NCBI GenBank assembly: GCA_030539115.1
Contig: JAUNSR010000001.1
Coordinates: 47,830-111,829 of the forward strand
Reading direction: 5' to 3'
From: Bacteroidales bacterium
Lineage (GTDB): Bacteria; Bacteroidota; Bacteroidia; Bacteroidales; JAUNSR01
DNA length: 64,000 bases
In this document: positions 30,759-63,926 of the stretch, in pieces
Layout: each line of letters begins with the position of its first letter
How positions within the stretch are numbered: the first letter of the stretch is position 1
Translations under genes and position numbers: made by a program
The notes under the pieces: generated by a model
What the model was told of the DNA's origin: nothing
What the model saw: the letters and a program-made list of their open reading frames with translations, nothing else
The model's database searches: none

Positions 30759-31685
30759 ATGTTTATGAAAAGAAATCTATTTTTGTTGATAATTCTTTTA
30801 CTTGCTGCAGCATGTGATGAATGCGGTGTTGAAGATAAAGTTGAATCCAAAATTCCTATTAATTTCTCGTCTCCTCTTTTGGCGCCGACAAAAGTAACTG
30901 ACTTTAGTTTTTTACCTGGAGAACAAATAGGTATTTTTATGTTAAATTCAGGCAGTACATTGAGCGCATCAACTATAGTTGATGATGTAAACAATTATAA
31001 TTATTATGTAAGCAGTGTCACATCTTTTGTTGCCAGTTTTTTACCATATACAACAGATACTGTATTTTTTCCAACTCCCGGGAATGTAGACTTTATTGCA
31101 TACTATCCATATTCAAACAGTATAAGTTCAACGTTCACCTGTCCTGTTTCAACTACTTCATCAGATCAAACAAATAGAGCGACAGTAGATTTTGTGTATT
31201 CCAACAATGCAACAAATATAAGCAGTGCAAATGTTAGCTTGGTGTTTAAACATGCACTGTCTTTTCTTGAATTTGATGTCGTAACCGAAACAGGCCTTGC
31301 ATTAACAGAAATGGTGGGTATGACTCTTACTCTCAACAACTTTAGTACAACTGCGGATGTAAATCTATCAGATGGAAGTATAATAAATCTCAACAGCGCA
31401 ACTCAGGATATAGTTTTGCCGGGAAAATATTATGCTGGAAACGAAGAATATATTGCAGATGGAATCATAGTTCCGCAGACAGTGGCTCAAAACTCTACAG
31501 TAACCTTTACTATGACTAATGGAAGAGTTTTCACTTATGATTTTCCTGATGATTTAGTTTTCGAAAGTGGCAAGATATATATATTTACTGTAACTCTTGA
31601 CAGAGGCACGAGTGCAAGTTTTACCGGTAGTGTAAGTTTTTGGCAACCGGGAACACTCGAAAACAGCGATATCGTTGCCAACTAA
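30759..31685 (+). CDS. Fimbrillin-family (Mfa-like) lipoprotein
   Basis: 308 aa. Lipobox LLLAAAC gives lipidated Cys19, followed by acidic residues (DEC). The mature part follows the fimbrillin-like/Mfa_like_1 pattern: an N-terminal transthyretin-like domain (IGIFML, VDFIAYYPY, VSLVFKHALSFLEFDV) and a C-terminal domain ending with FWQPG. In Bacteroidales such proteins are exported as surface lipoproteins and polymerise into fimbriae after proteolysis. No other fimbrial gene (minor subunit, anchor) is next to it, so it may be a tip or orphan subunit. Single gene with terminator. Confidence 0.82.
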   Translation: MFMKRNLFLLIILLLAAACDECGVEDKVESKIPINFSSPLLAPTKVTDFSFLPGEQIGIFMLNSGSTLSASTIVDDVNNYNYYVSSVTSFVASFLPYTTDTVFFPTPGNVDFIAYYPYSNSISSTFTCPVSTTSSDQTNRATVDFVYSNNATNISSANVSLVFKHALSFLEFDVVTETGLALTEMVGMTLTLNNFSTTADVNLSDGSIINLNSATQDIVLPGKYYAGNEEYIADGIIVPQTVAQNSTVTFTMTNGRVFTYDFPDDLVFESGKIYIFTVTLDRGTSASFTGSVSFWQPGTLENSDIVAN

Positions 31686-55932: not shown

Positions 55933-57096
55933 CTACTCAAAAAAAGTCATTATTCTGGCTGGAGATTTTCCGGAGGCTATTTCAGCTGCCATAAATGTCA
56001 TTGCAGGCGTTACATGATCAAAGAATTTGTAATATCCAGAGCAGTATATGTTATGACCTTTTTCTCCTGTTGACGATATTCCCAATCTGTCTTTCAAACA
56101 CCCGCCGTTGCAAAATTTTAAATACCTGCATTTTTTACATTGTGACGTAAGATTGCTCTTTTTCATTTGGCCAAACTTCAATTGTTTTCTTCCGTACATC
56201 AATCCCGTTAAACTATGGTCTATCATATTGCCCAAAAAATATTCAGGATTTGTAAACTGATTGCATGCATAAAGATCGCCGTTCGATTCAGCGCTTGCTT
56301 TATGACCGCAGGTTTGAGCAAAGATACAACTGCTGGATTCATTTCTACAGAATGAATTCAAAGTTTCATCGAAAATCACTATTTTGAATTTTCCAATATC
56401 ATTTCTAACCCACTCATCAAATATTGTACAAAGAAAATTTCCGTAACAGGAGGCAAATTCATTGTATTCTGAACTTTTTAAATTATCCTTATAAAAGACA
56501 GGCTTGAATTGAATATTTCTAAATGATTCGGATTTAAAAAATGAATATATCTCAAAGGGATAAAAAACATTATATTCATTTACATTTGAAATGATACTAA
56601 ATCTGACACCAAATCGCTTAAGCATATTTACGCCATGCATTACATCATCAAAAGAGCCGTTTCCATCCTTTTTAATTCTGTTTCTATCATGACAATGTCT
56701 CGGCCCGTCAATGCTTATCTTAACATTAAAATCATTTTCTTTAAAGAATCTGCTCCAATCTTCATCAATTAAAACTCCATTGGTATTGATATCATTAAAT
56801 ATTTTTCTTCCTATACCAAATTTTTTTTGAAATTCAACGGCCTTTTTAAAAAAATCAATACCCCTTAAAAGCGGCTCGCCACCCTCCCAGCAAAATTTTA
56901 CCGCACTATGAATCTGTGCATCTATATATTGCTTGGTAAACTTTTCAAGGGTTTCAACAGACATAAAATTCTTTGATTGTTCATCATATCCTCTAAGGCT
57001 GCAATATTCACAATTTAGATTACATTGCGCCCCTGATGCTTTTACTGTTACATAAATTGGAAACGCTACTGATCCGTATGAATTATCGTATTCCAT
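55933..57096 (-). CDS. anSME-type radical SAM/SPASM protein
   Basis: 387 aa from ATG at 57096. Radical SAM motif CNLNCEYC (Cys25, 29, 32) for the SAM-cleaving cluster. The C-terminal SPASM part has FAQTCGHKASAESNGDLYACNQF(T) and CKKCRYLKFCNGGC, enough cysteines for two auxiliary clusters. This pattern fits anaerobic sulfatase-maturating enzymes that turn a sulfatase active-site Cys or Ser into formylglycine. No sulfatase is in the window, so a different peptide substrate is possible. An inverted repeat overlaps its upstream region. Confidence 0.85.
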   Translation of the reverse strand: MEYDNSYGSVAFPIYVTVKASGAQCNLNCEYCSLRGYDEQSKNFMSVETLEKFTKQYIDAQIHSAVKFCWEGGEPLLRGIDFFKKAVEFQKKFGIGRKIFNDINTNGVLIDEDWSRFFKENDFNVKISIDGPRHCHDRNRIKKDGNGSFDDVMHGVNMLKRFGVRFSIISNVNEYNVFYPFEIYSFFKSESFRNIQFKPVFYKDNLKSSEYNEFASCYGNFLCTIFDEWVRNDIGKFKIVIFDETLNSFCRNESSSCIFAQTCGHKASAESNGDLYACNQFTNPEYFLGNMIDHSLTGLMYGRKQLKFGQMKKSNLTSQCKKCRYLKFCNGGCLKDRLGISSTGEKGHNIYCSGYYKFFDHVTPAMTFMAAEIASGKSPARIMTFFE

Positions 57097-57127
57097 ATAA
57101 TTACTTATAATATTTATTGCTTGATAA

Positions 57128-57156
57128 TAGAACAATTTTAAATGCATTTTGTTCTA
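57128..57156. promoter_or_regulatory. Inverted repeat TAGAACAA-N13-TTGTTCTA
   Basis: Perfect 8-bp arms at 57128-57135 and 57149-57156, 32 bases before the radical SAM start. Candidate operator, factor unknown. Confidence 0.4.
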
Positions 57157-57406
57157 TATGTTTTTTTTTAATCTTTGTCTTCTTGACTGTTAACAAGCAA
57201 TATTTTATGTGACATATCAATAAGAATAATCAATCTTTTATTTCTTTTTACATAGAATGCTTTGATTATATAAAGAATCTATTTTTAATTTTTAATTCTT
57301 ATCAGCATAATGATTAAAAAAATTGTCTCGATAAAAAACAAATTTTATCGAGACAATTTTCAATATATAAACTATCTGCAAATAAATAGTTAAATAAACC
57401 AGCTAT
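57157..57406. other. Gap between radical SAM gene and PCMD operon
   Basis: Contains the operon terminator at 57321-57358; the rest is AT-rich and featureless. Together with the upstream repeat the gene-free stretch is about 310 bases. Confidence 0.45.
57321..57358 (-). terminator. Terminator of the PCMD/DUF4493 operon
   Basis: Perfect 16-bp stem, arms 57321-57336 and 57343-57358, 6-base loop, followed on the minus strand by TTTTTTAATC. About 50 bases after the last stop. Confidence 0.92.
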
Positions 57407-58198
57407 TTAATAAGGATCTATCGTTGAGTTATTCTGATTGTCATCAACGGTATTATCAATCGAAACAGCATTTACAGAGACACTTCCAGAAGGTGTGGTT
57501 TTTACAGAAATCTTTATCCACTTAGCAGGCAAATTATTTTTCACTGTTCCCTCTATTCGTCTCTCTTGTTGAGAAGATTTACCGGTAGCTTCAATTAAAT
57601 ATGTTATATCCATATTTTCTCCAACATTAAAGTAGGCTATTGGAGATGAAACGGTGGAATTAGAATCAAAAACCAATTTTCTATTATCATTATTATAAAG
57701 CGTTATTTTGTAGTCAGAAAAACTCTCTGCCATAGATGAATCAAAAGAAACACTTGCTTTGGAGTTAATCATGCTGCAATTGATTTCGACAGAAGTTTCC
57801 TTAGACTTAACAATATCAAAACTTTCACTTTCGCCGAAATACCTTGGGCGTCCCCATAAATTATTATCATTTTCAGCCTCTGTATCATCGCAGTTCTGGG
57901 CTGATGCATAATAATTTGCTCCGGCTTTAAAAAAAAGATTTTCAGAAGTTAGAGTATTATATTTTTGACTAAGTCTCACAACATTATTTTGACGAATGGT
58001 AACCAAATATTGAGATATATCAGTTTCATCATTTGATCTTACAATTATTCCTGACCCATTGTTTATAGAATCATCATTAGATAATTTCAAAACCAAATTA
58101 CCCACCTCATCATTATCAAACATCTCACTCTCACTACAGGAATATAAAGTAAGAGCGAAGACCAACATCAATAAATATTTATTTAATCTTAACACCAT
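57407..58198 (-). CDS. DUF4493-like lipoprotein, last gene of the PCMD operon
   Basis: 263 aa from ATG at 58198. Lipobox LTLYSC (Cys21) followed by SESEMFD, an acidic stretch typical of surface-exported lipoproteins in Bacteroidota. The rest looks like a DUF4493-type pair of beta-sandwich domains (GNLVLKLSNDDSIN..., NCSMINSKASVSFDSSMAESFSDYKITLYN) with no PCMD domain. Ends in an Asn/Asp-rich tail. Starts 7 bases after the previous stop. Confidence 0.75.
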   Translation of the reverse strand: MVLRLNKYLLMLVFALTLYSCSESEMFDNDEVGNLVLKLSNDDSINNGSGIIVRSNDETDISQYLVTIRQNNVVRLSQKYNTLTSENLFFKAGANYYASAQNCDDTEAENDNNLWGRPRYFGESESFDIVKSKETSVEINCSMINSKASVSFDSSMAESFSDYKITLYNNDNRKLVFDSNSTVSSPIAYFNVGENMDITYLIEATGKSSQQERRIEGTVKNNLPAKWIKISVKTTPSGSVSVNAVSIDNTVDDNQNNSTIDPY

Positions 58199-58205
58199 AA
58201 TCAAT

Positions 58206-59939
58206 CTAATAATTCAAATTAACATTATCAATTCTTAGAATACTTCCCACCACGTAATCCTGATTAAAAGGTGTTATATTATAACTACCCTCAATCTGAA
58301 CCATTTTATTTAACGCTACATCAGTGCCCGATTGAAAGAAAACTCCAATATAGGCAGCCTTAACAAATTGATTCTTATAAACAAAATCAAGAGTTTTGTT
58401 TATATATTCAGATTGAGTTGAGGATTTAAATTCAGTAGTTTCTGCTATAATATTTTTTTCCAAGTCATATAATTTTGCATATACTATACATTCATCTCCT
58501 GATACCGGAGAATACTTATAGTCAAAAGACAAAGACAAAGGTCTTGAAGTGTGTGAAATGCCCAATGAATAAGAATCTGACGATTTGTCAAAACTTCCGG
58601 TAAAGAGATATCCTGTAAATGGCGTTCCATCACCTTGAACTGATGTTAGAATATTTGCTCTTGTCCATGATCCATATACATTTTGATTATAGAAAGCCAA
58701 GGTAGCTATTTCTGCCCCCTTACTTCCTTGAGTTGCATCTTCCACAGAGACTGTATTACTGCGCCAGCGATATTTAACTCCATATCCTGAACCTTTGTTT
58801 AATCCTATACCACCAGAATTAGCATTTTCAGCACCTAAGGTAGTTCTTTCATTTCTTGTAGACCATCCTGTGCAATAATCACAATATATATTTGCACTCC
58901 ATGATCCATTGCCGGAATAAAGCTTGGTCTGAGTCCAATCTTCAAAACTATTGTTTTGAATTTGTTGAGCAGCCTCGGTTGTAACAACCTGTGAGTTTGA
59001 ACTTATTATATTCTCAAATCTTGAGCGAATAGTATATGTAGTATTTGGTTGTAATCCTTTAATAACAATACGATCGCTTTCCAACTCTGATTTCAGCCAA
59101 GTAATATTATCTGAAGAGGCTTCGTAAACAATGTTTGAAATTACCTTATCAGCTATTTCAGCTTTATTTGTCATATTTTCAGATGTCATCGGAGTAATAT
59201 ATACCTTACTGCCCCATACATCAATATCATTTTGTTGCGGTAAAGTGAAAGCAGGAAGATTTGGAGTATAATTAATAGTGTAGCGATTTTTTAAAGCCAC
59301 ATTATTAACTGTGCATGAAAAGCTTTTTATCTCTCCTAATGTATTATTGCCGACAAAATACAATTTATAGCTTTTCCCCGACGGCACGAAACAATCATGA
59401 TTATTTTCAACCGGTGTAAGCTTTTGATCATTCTCCTCGGATATATTTATAACAATTGATGAGGCATCAAAATAGGATAATACTTCATCAGAAAGATACG
59501 GTCTGATAATACTGCATCCTAATTCAACAACAAGATCGGAAACAGCCGTTGTCTTACCCTGTTCAATAACAAAATTCTTTGAAGCATATAAATATGGATA
59601 TTCTGACGACACCACATTCTCAGAATATGAAATTTCAAGAGTATATGATCCCGACTTTAATGACAATGAGCTGAATCCGCCAACCTCATTGAATGCTATT
59701 TCTTTGGTCTCATTGTCAATAACAGTATATGTCAAATCCGAAACATCGGGTGGAGTAAATGTACCGGCTGCTTTTGTTAATAAATTATCACTTGTATCAA
59801 CATTAACTGATATATTATTTATTAACAAAGTACCTTTCCCATCATTAAATGTTTCTGCATAATCATCATGACATGAAATAAAATTTCCCGCCATAAATAC
59901 AAAAAACATATACACAAAAAAAATTCTTTTACTATTCAT
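58206..59939 (-). CDS. DUF4493-Fn3-PCMD-like lipoprotein (variant)
   Basis: 577 aa from ATG at 59939, overlapping the upstream gene by 8 bases. Lipobox ending ISC (Cys23) and acidic HDDYAE. DUF4493-like domain about 30-235, Fn3-like domain about 245-335 (LQPNTTYTIRSRFEN) and a C-terminal jelly-roll-like domain about 340-577 starting NNSFEDWTQ. The last differs clearly from the other two PCMD domains but keeps the N(S/L)(x)FxxW start, KGAEIATL core and final VDNVNLNY. Probably carbohydrate or glycoprotein binding (PCMD means putative carbohydrate metabolism domain). Confidence 0.75.
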   Translation of the reverse strand: MNSKRIFFVYMFFVFMAGNFISCHDDYAETFNDGKGTLLINNISVNVDTSDNLLTKAAGTFTPPDVSDLTYTVIDNETKEIAFNEVGGFSSLSLKSGSYTLEISYSENVVSSEYPYLYASKNFVIEQGKTTAVSDLVVELGCSIIRPYLSDEVLSYFDASSIVINISEENDQKLTPVENNHDCFVPSGKSYKLYFVGNNTLGEIKSFSCTVNNVALKNRYTINYTPNLPAFTLPQQNDIDVWGSKVYITPMTSENMTNKAEIADKVISNIVYEASSDNITWLKSELESDRIVIKGLQPNTTYTIRSRFENIISSNSQVVTTEAAQQIQNNSFEDWTQTKLYSGNGSWSANIYCDYCTGWSTRNERTTLGAENANSGGIGLNKGSGYGVKYRWRSNTVSVEDATQGSKGAEIATLAFYNQNVYGSWTRANILTSVQGDGTPFTGYLFTGSFDKSSDSYSLGISHTSRPLSLSFDYKYSPVSGDECIVYAKLYDLEKNIIAETTEFKSSTQSEYINKTLDFVYKNQFVKAAYIGVFFQSGTDVALNKMVQIEGSYNITPFNQDYVVGSILRIDNVNLNY

Positions 59940-61539
59940 ATAACAATTCAAATTCGTCAACTAATAATTCACTGCCGGTTCCAACAGAACCCGTAACTTT
60001 CGAACCTGTAAAATCACCTCCATATTTACTTGAAGTAGCAACTATAGTTATCTTGGAAGGATAGGAATTTAAATCTGAATAATTAATATCAAAACTAAAC
60101 TCAGTATATTTACTCACAGTTTCTGAGCCGACAAATTCTCCATACCCTATTTCTTTATCATCCGAATTCCAAATTCTTACATAAATGTGACATTGGTCAT
60201 TTTTAAGATCGGCAGGTGTTCCTACATAATCAACAGGCATGGATTTATACTTGTACCACCCTTTTAAGCCTGTTGGTCGCGCTCCTGTAAAGCTTCTTCC
60301 AAAAGTTACACTTTTGGCAGGGGCAGTCATATTTGTTTTATATTCGCCTATAAAAAGGTTTCCAGCTGCAGTACCAACCAATGTTACATTTCCAAGAGTA
60401 GTCATTTTAGCAGCCTTTCCTTTTACCACATCAGTTAGTTCAGGCTGTGAATTTGCATCTCTTGAACCTGCAAGAGCAGATGTCACGCCATCATTTCCTG
60501 TTGCCCAAAACGAATTTGCACCATCCTCATTCGGATACCAACTTTTCTTAAAGTTTCCGGTAGGATTTTGTGACCAATTGTCAAAATTCAAATTTGGAAT
60601 ATCAACGATTTTTTCTGTAGTAAATGAAGACTCATTTGTTGAATAATCCTCCACTCTAACTCTCCATTTATATGTTTGACCATCCTTTAAGCCACGTACC
60701 GTAGTTTTAAAAGTGGTCGATGTCAATATATCTATATTCTTCTCATCAACAGCCGTCCATGAAGAAGAGTTATCCAATCTGTATTCCACAATTGGAACAG
60801 CTCCTTGTTTCATTCCGCCTGTTAATGTCACTTTCTTAGCCCAAGCATCGGATGTTCCTAATGTTGCCTTAACTTCAGTATGAACAACATCAACATTCCA
60901 ATTCTCAAAATATTTATCAAAACGGGAAACAACAAATGCCTGAGGTCTTCTAAAATCTATTACAGTGGAAGGATCAGGTGTAACCACTCCTTTCAAACCT
61001 CCCAATTGAAGCTTATTAATCTTCACACTGGAAAGTGGCTGTGTCGGTGAAACATAAATAACGACATTTTTATTTATCTCATCGATAATTGCATCTCCGA
61101 CCTGATTGTCAACCTCAATTTTTCTTTCAAAATACTGATTCACCTCGACTTTCCATATATATTCCTGATAGGTAAGAAATCTGAAATTTACCGGATTTCT
61201 AAAATTCATTCTTGTATCAGCAGAAACAGGAAGTTCATCAACTGATGCAAAACTGAAATTAGGGAAACGGTTGAATTGTTCACAAACTGATGAATCCGGA
61301 TAAAATGTCGCGCCATCGGTATATAGCAATCTAACCAATTTAGCAGATTCTATGTCTACGCTGTCAGACAATGTTATTTTAGCAGTTCTCTTTGACAAGT
61401 CAAATACTGTCTCTCCTATTTGTCCATCCACCTTTATGTCAGTTATGTCAACAGGAGTATATGGGTAAGGGATATCATTTTCGATGCAACCTGCAGTCAA
61501 AAACAAAAGAGATATTATGGCGCAATAATTTTTCATCAT
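59932..61539 (-). CDS. PCMD-domain surface lipoprotein
   Basis: 535 aa. Lipobox LFLTAGC (Cys18) then IENDIP. Residues about 25-215 are Ig-like repeats (DITDIKVDGQIGETVFDLSK; the second starts KIEVDNQVGDAIIDE), about 215-315 an Fn3-like domain (RGLKDGQTYKWRVRVED), and about 320-535 a PCMD domain: NLNFDNWSQ, SALAGSRDANSQ, GKAAKMTTL, FGRSFTGARPTGLKGWYKYK, SSKYGGDFTGSKVTG, LLVDEFELLYE. The PCMD part is strongly similar to that of the 63926 gene. Starts 3 bases after the barrel gene stop. Confidence 0.85.
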   Translation of the reverse strand: MMKNYCAIISLLFLTAGCIENDIPYPYTPVDITDIKVDGQIGETVFDLSKRTAKITLSDSVDIESAKLVRLLYTDGATFYPDSSVCEQFNRFPNFSFASVDELPVSADTRMNFRNPVNFRFLTYQEYIWKVEVNQYFERKIEVDNQVGDAIIDEINKNVVIYVSPTQPLSSVKINKLQLGGLKGVVTPDPSTVIDFRRPQAFVVSRFDKYFENWNVDVVHTEVKATLGTSDAWAKKVTLTGGMKQGAVPIVEYRLDNSSSWTAVDEKNIDILTSTTFKTTVRGLKDGQTYKWRVRVEDYSTNESSFTTEKIVDIPNLNFDNWSQNPTGNFKKSWYPNEDGANSFWATGNDGVTSALAGSRDANSQPELTDVVKGKAAKMTTLGNVTLVGTAAGNLFIGEYKTNMTAPAKSVTFGRSFTGARPTGLKGWYKYKSMPVDYVGTPADLKNDQCHIYVRIWNSDDKEIGYGEFVGSETVSKYTEFSFDINYSDLNSYPSKITIVATSSKYGGDFTGSKVTGSVGTGSELLVDEFELLYE

Positions 61540-61542
61540 AAT

Positions 61543-62283
61543 TTAAAAATAAAAGCTCATACCGAGATTGATTGAGAAAAGATCTATTTTAAAATTTCCG
61601 CTGCTCTTTGTTCTGCTTCCATCATAAATTTGATCAGTTTTCTGGTCTATCCATTTAAAATCAAATCCCAAAACTCCCACAGAAACCTCTACAGCTGCAA
61701 AATTTGTTATAAATGCAGTCATGCCCGGTGCAATACCTACCTGTAAATTATTGATTGTCTGGAAAGTTCCGGTCAAATCATTCCCCTTTCCGGAGGTATC
61801 TTTTGCCTGTCCATAACCATAAGTTAATCTTGCCTCATTGAAAAGCCCGAAAATCCTGCTTGATCCAATAGGAATATAGGTTCTCAGAAATGCTGTAGAA
61901 GCAAAATTATGCTCCAAATAATACTGATCGTCTATCTCGAATGAAAGATCATCACCAAAATCGATATCAATATTCTCAAGATTGGCGTAAGTTCTTGAAT
62001 ATGTAAATCTCAAACCGGCAGCGACATTATTTGCAAAAAAATAGCCGAAGAACGGTGTTACCTTACAAGTATACCCCTCGGTTGTCATATTCTTTAGGAC
62101 CAAAAACTTATAGTTGTCATCCTGATGCTCAGTATATGAAAAAGTTGCTCCTGAAAGCCACTGACCTTTTGGTATAAATGTCTGTTTCATTATACCCCTA
62201 TCAAAACCGCGGTTTGTATCGCTTTGAGCGACACAAACCACAGCCATGAAAGATAATATTATACTAATAAAAATATTTTTCAT
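61543..62283 (-). CDS. Small outer-membrane beta-barrel protein
   Basis: 246 aa. Signal peptide MKNIFISIILSFMAVVCVAQ, then alternating hydrophobic strands (VAAGLRFTYSRTYANL, FGLFNEARLTYGYGQ) and a C-terminal phenylalanine in LGMSFYF, the standard signal for outer-membrane barrel insertion. Length fits an 8- to 10-strand barrel of the OmpX/PorT kind, with no plug or TonB box. Its ATG overlaps the stop of the upstream PCMD gene by one base (TAATG), so translation is coupled. Confidence 0.85.
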   Translation of the reverse strand: MKNIFISIILSFMAVVCVAQSDTNRGFDRGIMKQTFIPKGQWLSGATFSYTEHQDDNYKFLVLKNMTTEGYTCKVTPFFGYFFANNVAAGLRFTYSRTYANLENIDIDFGDDLSFEIDDQYYLEHNFASTAFLRTYIPIGSSRIFGLFNEARLTYGYGQAKDTSGKGNDLTGTFQTINNLQVGIAPGMTAFITNFAAVEVSVGVLGFDFKWIDQKTDQIYDGSRTKSSGNFKIDLFSINLGMSFYF

Positions 62284-63926
62284 TAAAAATACGATAATGT
62301 GAATTCATCAACATACAGCACACTTCCCGAACCAACTTGTCCTACCACTTTGCTTCTCTCAAAATCTCCTCCATAATGACTTGAGGTAGAGACTATGGTT
62401 ATTTTTGCAGGTTTTGCTGTAAGATTTGTATAATTTATGTCAATATCAAATTTCTTGTATGAACTTGTAGTCTCTTTACCTACAAATTCACCAAATGCTA
62501 TCTCATTACCTGAGGCATCCCAAAGTTTGATATATATATTACATTCATCGGTTGTAAGATTTCCCGGTTTTGTACCATAACTTATAGCAGCAGGTTTGTA
62601 GTCATAATATCCTGAAAGTTTTATAGGGCGAGCTCCGGAATATGCCCTTCCAAAACTAACGCTGGCAGAAGGATTTGTCATATTGGTTGCATACGAGCCA
62701 ATAAACAAATTGCCTGCCGCAGCTCCTACAAGAGTAATACCGGTTAATGTTGTAAGCCTTGCCGCTTTACCCCTAACCACATTATCCTCAACATATACAG
62801 TATTTGCATTATTTCCTCCTGCAAGAATAGATGTAATGCCGGTGTTGCCTGATGCCCAATAAGAATCAGAGGCTGCAGAGTTTGCAAAATAGTTTTTGCC
62901 ATTTACCGACCAAGTATCGAAGTTCAGATTTGGAATCTCTTCATAAGATTCTGTTTTGAATGTCATATACTCGCTTATTCTCTCACCAATCATCAACCGA
63001 ACCTCATATGATGTTGCAAAATCAAGCTCTCCTGTCTTTACAGAATAGTTGTTACCGGATTTCTGCGCTAAAATTGAAGTCCATTGAGAGGAACCGGATT
63101 TTCTAACCTGAAAATAAGCATTCTCTGTCTCGGCCTCAGCTGCCGAGCCATAAAGATATGCAAATTTACCCCAAGCATTCACGCTTGTCATAGATAAATT
63201 CGGATCGGTAGCTACCTCAGGTTCAACAGGGACTGTAATTGTTACATTAAACTGATTTAAAGACGGATCAAATGTTATGTCAAAATCGCCTCCACCTGTT
63301 GATGAGACATCATAATTAAGTTTATAATGGTGACGGGCGGTAACATTTGTTATTGGCGTATTCAATGTAAAACTTTTTCCATCATTGTTGACCATTGCCA
63401 GTGAGGCATTTAAATCAACAACCGGGTAAAATCCAGAACGAGTTTCTGATATATTGAAAACAAGGCTCTTTTCAGCTCCGGTTACGATACAGTCTAAACT
63501 TTTGAAATATTTCTTTAGATTGTCGCTGTATTTTACCGACACCTTGACATTTGATATTTTGCATTCAATCTGGATGGGCTTTATTACATTTTTCTCTACT
63601 GCAACTGTTGTTTCCCCTTCATAATATGGAGAATCAAAAGACACATCCGAGACGTTCTTTGTTGAAGAATATGCATAAACCCTATATGTCCCGACACCTA
63701 AAAGAATATTATCTTTTATCGTTGTATAATCATCATTTTGATAAGCTATCTGATTGGCTGAATTAAATATTTTCAGACCTATCTGCTCTGTGGTTGAAGC
63801 CTTTGTAATTGTATTGCCATTTGTTATTACATCAAGTTTTAGATAGCCCATTTCAGGCATCTCATCCTCCTGACAAGAGACAAAAAGCAAAATAAACAGA
63901 GAGAAAATTATATGTTTAAGTTTCAT
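62283..63926 (-). CDS. DUF4493-Fn3-PCMD surface lipoprotein, first gene of operon
   Basis: 547 aa. Lipobox LLFVSC (Cys18) followed by QEDEMPE, an acidic surface-export signal. DUF4493 about 25-220 (MGYLKLDVITNGN, SNVKVSVKYSDNLKKYF), Fn3-like about 240-330 (GELDFATSYEVRLMIG) and PCMD about 333-547 (NLNFDTWSVNGKNYF, GKAARLTTL, FGRAYSGARPIKLSGYYDYK, SSHYGGDFERSKVVG, LYVDEFTLSYF). Promoter region lies near the window edge; TTTGAAAA/TTTTCAAA arms occur at 63946-63953 and 63962-63969. Confidence 0.88.
   Translation of the reverse strand: MKLKHIIFSLFILLFVSCQEDEMPEMGYLKLDVITNGNTITKASTTEQIGLKIFNSANQIAYQNDDYTTIKDNILLGVGTYRVYAYSSTKNVSDVSFDSPYYEGETTVAVEKNVIKPIQIECKISNVKVSVKYSDNLKKYFKSLDCIVTGAEKSLVFNISETRSGFYPVVDLNASLAMVNNDGKSFTLNTPITNVTARHHYKLNYDVSSTGGGDFDITFDPSLNQFNVTITVPVEPEVATDPNLSMTSVNAWGKFAYLYGSAAEAETENAYFQVRKSGSSQWTSILAQKSGNNYSVKTGELDFATSYEVRLMIGERISEYMTFKTESYEEIPNLNFDTWSVNGKNYFANSAASDSYWASGNTGITSILAGGNNANTVYVEDNVVRGKAARLTTLTGITLVGAAAGNLFIGSYATNMTNPSASVSFGRAYSGARPIKLSGYYDYKPAAISYGTKPGNLTTDECNIYIKLWDASGNEIAFGEFVGKETTSSYKKFDIDINYTNLTAKPAKITIVSTSSHYGGDFERSKVVGQVGSGSVLYVDEFTLSYF

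Follow-up and report, generated by a model that had tools for sequence, protein, structure and literature searches.

A conserved DUF4493/PCMD lipoprotein and beta-barrel operon proposed to encode a glycan-binding surface complex in Bacteroidales

The DNA analysed here is a stretch of 64,000 nucleotides (contig C10:47830-111829, henceforth referred to as the window) from a Bacteroidales genome of 3.37 Mb. It contains most of a seven-gene operon encoding six lipoproteins, which carry DUF4493 and PCMD domains, and one small outer-membrane beta-barrel. On balance, the operon probably encodes a single surface lipoprotein-barrel complex, with the barrel as its seat, a conserved lipoprotein N-terminus as the docking tether and PCMD heads that bind glycan without cutting it. 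The eight-stranded barrel, present here as one copy and elsewhere usually as two paralogues, would be a membrane seat and not a channel. The PCMD lipoprotein encoded next to it would dock through a near-invariant tether that follows the lipid-bearing Cys, and the DUF4493 lipoproteins would reach the outer leaflet via an acidic export signal. DUF4493 would then sit at the membrane, where it probably packs the lipoproteins together, while the PCMD domains would occupy the far ends and bind glycan, making the assembly a putative glycan-binding adhesin or capture device. A surface complex had been proposed in the initial annotation of this DNA, and as a prediction from sequence it is well supported by gene order, gene spacing, co-retained modules, the export signal and the tether.

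Organization of the operon

The initial annotation described a five-gene operon. Five same-strand open reading frames are indeed present on the minus strand of the window, but two further DUF4493 lipoprotein genes were found upstream, past the window edge, bringing the total to seven. In order, the products are a DUF4493 protein of 265 amino acids, a DUF4493 protein of 434, a DUF4493-Fn3-PCMD protein of 547, the barrel of 246, a PCMD protein of 535, a DUF4493 protein with a PCMD-like end of ~577 and a DUF4493 protein of ~263. The first two genes, identified by Pfam, lie outside the window at L007:5231-6028 (~window 65401-66198) and L007:3889-5193 (~window 64059-65363). Within the window, the third gene of the seven (62283-63926) was identified by Pfam and by model and PDB matches, and is followed by the barrel gene (61543-62283) and the 535-residue PCMD lipoprotein gene (59932-61539), the latter identified by Pfam and by its conserved barrel neighbour. 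The 577-residue protein is counted from the ATG at 59939 (58206-59939), and the last gene encodes 263 residues from the ATG at 58198 (57407-58198).

When the ATG nearest each preceding stop is used, the gaps between the five window genes are -1, +3, -8 and +7 bases, in agreement with the range first reported; only 3 bases separate the barrel gene from the PCMD lipoprotein gene that follows it. The single terminator annotated after the last gene was also confirmed, as an intrinsic terminator with a 19-pair hairpin and a T tract at 57312-57361 on the minus strand (-22.9 kcal/mol, z -6.7 for ~57318-57361). The 434-residue gene is separated from the first window gene by 132 bases, compared with 10-14 in the closest relatives, so an internal promoter may be present at this point. 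The genome has five DUF4493 copies, every one of them in this operon; further PCMD genes are located elsewhere, on C1 and on C78.

No SusC/D, glycosidase or transporter gene was found in the operon or on either side of it in the window and its flanks. The reported absence of such genes from the operon was thereby upheld, and the SusCD pair just outside the window that the initial annotation had named among the observations at odds with its reading is missing from the flanks. It would accordingly be very surprising if the operon were the tail of an ordinary polysaccharide utilisation locus with SusCD nearby. That explanation draws on the first assignment of PCMD to carbohydrate metabolism from genome context (PMC2954218), but SusC-like proteins were found within ~10 kb in just 2 of 117 related loci, a weak negative given that one search query of limited reach was used. 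Like the present operon, SusCD loci with their surface glycan-binding proteins involve operon-encoded surface lipoproteins that have Ig/Fn3 stalks and carry binding-type domains at the distal end. They differ in that the gene set described here is conserved as a unit without a TonB-dependent SusC, a SusD, an enzyme or a regulator.

Conservation of the gene set across Bacteroidales

A match to the barrel was obtained in 43 of 393 sampled genomes of the order (34 of them strong), and the gene set, hereafter the cassette, is missing from about nine tenths of the order. A named genome collection yielded 322 matching stretches, with carriers including Bacteroides finegoldii, B. acidifaciens, B. congonensis, B. 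cutis, Phocaeicola plebeius and P. coprophilus, as well as Barnesiella, Coprobacter, a Parabacteroides, Odoribacter lunatus and Muribaculaceae. The gene-neighbourhood survey suggested by the initial annotation covered 117 loci and revealed a canonical order: a DUF4493 protein of ~850 residues with a PCMD-like end, a DUF4493 protein of ~420, a DUF4493-Fn3-PCMD protein of ~710, barrel 1, barrel 2 and a PCMD lipoprotein of ~530. In several Bacteroides, one or two DUF4493 genes are added after the canonical set, as in the window genome. Order and tight spacing are retained in ~100 loci from many genera, with median gaps of 4 bases between the two barrels, 2 between barrel and PCMD gene, -8 between DUF4493/PCMD gene and barrel, and 4 between DUF4493 and DUF4493/PCMD genes. 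Such conservation of order, spacing and co-occurrence in many genera is more than chance would give, and the possibility that the order is found only here did not hold. Bacteroides cassettes keep the same chromosomal neighbours, which suggests vertical inheritance in that genus.

The barrel-barrel-PCMD part is often found on its own in Muribaculaceae-type genomes; a locus was scored as split if no DUF4493 gene was present in the fetched flanks (up to 10 kb). For two split genomes, full reading of the loci showed a DUF4493-PCMD, DUF4493, DUF4493-PCMD trio on another contig. DUF4493 genes were present in 16 of 16 searched genomes of the barrel-alone type. The sole DUF4493 copy of one of these (L164) is linked to the barrels, leaving 15 true split genomes; one of these 15 and one of the two genomes with the fully read trio are a single assembly. 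All 15 retain both halves, and 14 have three DUF4493 genes on one contig. This retention argues for the barrel module and the DUF4493 module being one functional unit. Across the 393 genomes, a strong barrel match was seen in 32 of the 35 with at least two DUF4493 copies and in 2 of the 358 others (Fisher test, uncorrected for phylogeny), so that 3 and 2 genomes, respectively, are discordant; the pattern holds across many families. The window's own genus contains genomes with both the DUF4493 set and the barrel as well as genomes with neither.

Lipid anchors, export signal and tether

The four window lipoproteins were said to carry acidic residues directly after the lipid-bearing Cys, and this was borne out: the mature proteins start with C-QEDE, C-IEND, C-HDDY and C-SESE, where IEND belongs to the 535-residue and HDDY to the 577-residue protein. 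Among 267 proteins, positions +4 and +5 are acidic in 57% and 45%, respectively, compared with 16% and 27% of 51 other lipoproteins, which agrees with the lipoprotein export signal of the phylum (PMC5080379). At least two acidic residues within six residues of the lipid Cys, a published mark of surface lipoproteins (PMC12578637), are present in all six operon lipoproteins. DUF4493 begins a median of 10 residues past the lipid Cys (183 proteins) and PCMD terminates at or near the C-terminus, with zero cases of PCMD preceding DUF4493.

The barrel-adjacent PCMD lipoprotein displays a tether directly from its lipid Cys, with the consensus C-I-x-N-D-I-P-Y-P; in the window it reads C-I-E-N-D-I-P-Y-P (codons at 61456-61488, minus strand). 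The tether is on average more conserved than the remainder of the protein (88 orthologues: N 84, D 77, P 79, Y 83, P 86). Of 89 PCMD proteins encoded beside a barrel, 73 carry the motif. It is missing from all 196 DUF4493 proteins and occurs in 2 of 20 PCMD proteins scored as not adjacent to a barrel; both of the latter (L075, L085) do adjoin barrel matches that were masked by longer antisense open reading frames. In the BAM complex of Bacteroidota, BamH is a lipoprotein whose conserved N-terminus is wedged between strands of its partner barrel BamG (PMC12578637). By analogy, docking on the barrel would be the natural reading of the tether, and the motif gives a sequence-level entry point to the question of how surface lipoproteins locate their barrels.

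The same likeness raises the alternative that the cassette is an envelope-biogenesis factor, in which barrels and lipoproteins help to assemble or place surface proteins as the BamG-K dome may. BamG/BamH and the cassette have in common a conserved surface-lipoprotein N-terminus beside a partner barrel and, as proposed here, a barrel that acts as a platform for several lipoproteins; the cassette tether resembles the wedged BamH N-terminus (PMC12578637), and the occurrence of the barrel-barrel-PCMD part as a separate chromosomal unit in Muribaculaceae-type genomes also fits this role. However, BamG is a 14-stranded FadL relative and BamH-K belong to other families, while the cassette barrel is eight-stranded by model and not FadL-like. 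BAM components are widespread, whereas the cassette occurs in about a tenth of the sampled genomes, a distribution poorly suited to a general assembly factor, and no isomerase or other folding domain was found in the operon. A biogenesis role is therefore considered improbable.

DUF4493, PCMD and Fn3 domains

The proposed hidden Markov model searches were carried out at the curated Pfam cut-offs of 27 bits for DUF4493 (PF14900) and 28 bits for PCMD (PF13201). Five operon genes score above the DUF4493 cut-off (149, 131, 151, 63 and 116 bits). Three of these are in the window, as annotated: the 547-residue protein (151 bits), the 577-residue protein (63 bits) and the last protein of the operon (116.5 bits). 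PCMD was identified in the 547-residue protein (120 bits) and in the 535-residue protein (131 bits, residues 318-532). The initial annotation had counted three PCMD or PCMD-like proteins; two stand above the cut-off, and the C-terminus of the third, the 577-residue protein, falls just under it at 27.5 bits. Its three Fn3-like proteins were likewise confirmed in part, the Fn3 of the 547-residue protein being clear in the structural model (Z ~11) and the other two window proteins giving weak sequence matches. The parts of the 547-residue protein are the lipid Cys (residue 18), DUF4493 (25-233), the Fn3-like domain (241-328) and PCMD (335-544). The structural alignments of its model cover residues 239-544, i.e. 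the protein without DUF4493.

The modelled PCMD domain of the 547-residue protein is a jelly roll that matches PDB entries 4jrl, 3s30, 4het and 3hbz at Z ~18. A profile built from the PCMD domains of the cassette loci retrieved these four structures as well, with E-values of 1e-37 to 1e-40, and BT2081 (3hbz) was related to PCMD with E 1e-39 by profile and Z 17.7 by structure. BT2081 has a deep aromatic-lined pocket for which carbohydrate binding has been proposed, perhaps with catalysis by D259 and D338 (PMC2954218). Across 183 PCMD domains, pocket positions 202, 206 and 340 are nearly always aromatic and position 261 is mostly so, and the calcium-ligand acids are mostly retained; D259 is substituted in most. 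In the window PCMD proteins, position 259 is N or H and position 338 is G, so that both proposed catalytic Asp residues are absent. Since the pocket aromatics are kept and the catalytic residues are not, glycan binding is predicted to be more likely than cleavage. BT2081, BVU_0247, BT3745 and BACOVA_00087 (3hbz, 3s30, 4het and 4jrl) share the homologous jelly roll, the pocket aromatics and the calcium-ligand acids with the cassette proteins. They are, however, short lipoproteins with one Ig-like domain that keep D259, whereas the cassette PCMD proteins have DUF4493 or a longer N-terminal part and have mostly lost D259.

The DUF4493 part of the model is all-beta and of low confidence. Together with the tandem lipoprotein subunits and their recurring N-terminal domains, such a fold could suggest a pilus-like polymer, with DUF4493 as a distant fimbrillin that stacks by strand exchange as in type V pili. 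Comparison of DUF4493 with Mfa_like_1 and Mfa2 profiles gave no signal (the positive control was itself weak), and no DUF4493 match was obtained in the PDB, where sequence searches returned matches at chance level. No Pfam fimbrillin domain was found in the operon. Type V pili are not known to use a barrel, which also counts against a pilus, and this explanation appears highly improbable.

NCBIfam contained no named family for any operon gene. Lone DUF4493 proteins of ~400 residues occur in barrel-less genomes (L228:7550-8815, L229:6891-8048 and L230:7099-8298), and the domain is thus also found outside the cassette.

The barrel

The model of the 246-residue protein (pLDDT 81) contains a signal helix and long strands forming an eight-stranded barrel of the OprF/OmpA/OmpW type, and matches OprF (4rlc) at Z 14.1 and a root-mean-square deviation of 2.6 over 133 aligned residues. 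The modelled strands are ~20 residues long and extend past the membrane, so the barrel could serve as a platform. The initial annotation had left its role as either anchor or exit gate. The former fits the model better; the latter is disfavoured because a modelled barrel of OmpA size would be too narrow for protein passage. By sequence, the window barrel did not match any curated family. Sequence families of the OmpA/OmpW type gave weak hits only, and the general OMP_b-brl model gave a weak match in 6 of 19 barrel relatives. The motif TF(I/V)PKGQW before strand 1 is among the most conserved parts of the barrel. In the barrel tree, first- and second-position barrels separate into two clades without exception (146 of 146 sequences), which identifies the pair, from sequence, as an old duplication. 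The single barrel of the window genome falls in the first-barrel clade, the second copy being absent here.

The closest precedent is the BT1926/BT1927 pair of B. thetaiotaomicron, in which BT1927 is an S-layer lipoprotein and BT1926 an eight-stranded barrel thought to be its anchor or secretion partner (PMC12578637). The cassette lipoproteins might accordingly make up a surface coat, akin to an S-layer or serving as a spacing layer, that the barrel holds in place. The gene logic, a surface lipoprotein adjoining a small eight-stranded barrel, is shared (PMC12578637), and hhalign related the cassette barrel to a broad BT1926-like set with 94% probability over 155 columns, compared with 11% and 1% for two control barrel families. 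Against a core BT1926-like set, however, the value dropped to 5%, and the barrel would be at best a remote relative. A BT1927-like protein did not match the DUF4493 or PCMD profiles, and blastp and hhalign comparisons were negative, so the lipoproteins are unrelated by sequence. The BT1926-type locus was reached via the published inverton repeat (PMC12118408); none of the cassette loci contains this repeat (CCGTTACCTA-type), and a scan upstream of the cassette in 101 loci found no inverted repeats of at least 15 bases, leaving the cassette without the invertible promoter of its precedent. The cassette differs further in the number of its lipoproteins, four to six, and in often having a pair of paralogous barrels. 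It resembles BT1926/BT1927 in outline, sequence does not establish membership in that system, and a coat of this kind is regarded as unlikely.

Mutual exclusion of cassette and BT1926-type loci was considered and dropped, as one Bacteroides genome (L093, L260) has both. A genome of the window's genus without the cassette (G001, L263) encodes a BT1926-like barrel that is 56% identical to the Bacteroides one. On contig C1 of the window genome, a second PCMD lipoprotein is paired with a small barrel (L009:1513-3606), the PF13568 barrel being 210 bases away, and PF13568-like barrels are also located near PCMD genes in Bacteroides/Phocaeicola loci L093, L096, L113, L116, L117 and L122. PCMD lipoproteins may therefore have been paired with small barrels more than once.

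Assessment of the proposed complex

Several considerations weigh against the glycan-binding surface complex favoured here. Its formation is deduced from gene context, and carbohydrate binding by PCMD is a structural proposal (PMC2954218). The outer-leaflet location of the DUF4493 lipoproteins follows from the predicted export signal, which is itself statistical and was measured against a small comparison set (n = 51); it is also the one line of evidence brought to bear on the periplasmic location that the initial annotation had listed as contrary to its reading. Docking of the tether on the barrel is drawn from analogy, and the packing role of DUF4493 is read from its position alone, the model of this domain being of low confidence. 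A more specific version of the complex is offered tentatively, as a possibility: in an outer-membrane machine, two ancient paralogous barrels may seat the acylated peptide of a PCMD lipoprotein, on which DUF4493 lipoproteins would stack, with the two modules obligate to each other even when encoded apart.

No paper on the DUF4493 or PCMD domain (PF14900, PF13201) was found in the open-access literature and, as far as that literature goes, the gene set is undescribed. Surface lipoprotein-barrel complexes shape glycan capture by Bacteroidales, their adhesion to mucus and fibre, and their encounters with phages and antibodies. The order of the cassette is conserved in Bacteroides, Phocaeicola, Barnesiella, Coprobacter and Odoribacter, among other genera, yet what is known of its parts is limited to domains whose function is either unknown or guessed. 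Its carriers comprise many gut- and animal-associated Bacteroidales, including B. finegoldii, B. acidifaciens and P. plebeius, which are named species that can be cultured.

Neighbouring genes and additional observations

Upstream, the operon is set apart from divergent ruvA and sprA genes by ~840 bases of AT-rich sequence (L007:6030-6870), in which an Rfam scan gave no match and no clear invertible repeat was seen. Past sprA, a C10-family (streptopain-like) protease with a Spi inhibitor propeptide and a weak type IX secretion tail is encoded at L007:15941-18178. Downstream of the terminator lies a gene resembling a radical-SAM sulfatase maturase (window 55933-57147); its radical-SAM/SPASM product scores 378.6 bits with the anaerobic sulfatase maturase model, above the cut-off of 349.45. 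The window also contains, at 30759-31685, an Mfa_like_1 fimbrillin-like lipoprotein gene, the sole one found in this genome, whereas genus mates have 8 to 18. In one surveyed cassette locus, a 1342-residue Listeria-Bacteroides-repeat protein (L060:11915-15943) is encoded 5 bases after the PCMD gene, apparently in the same operon.

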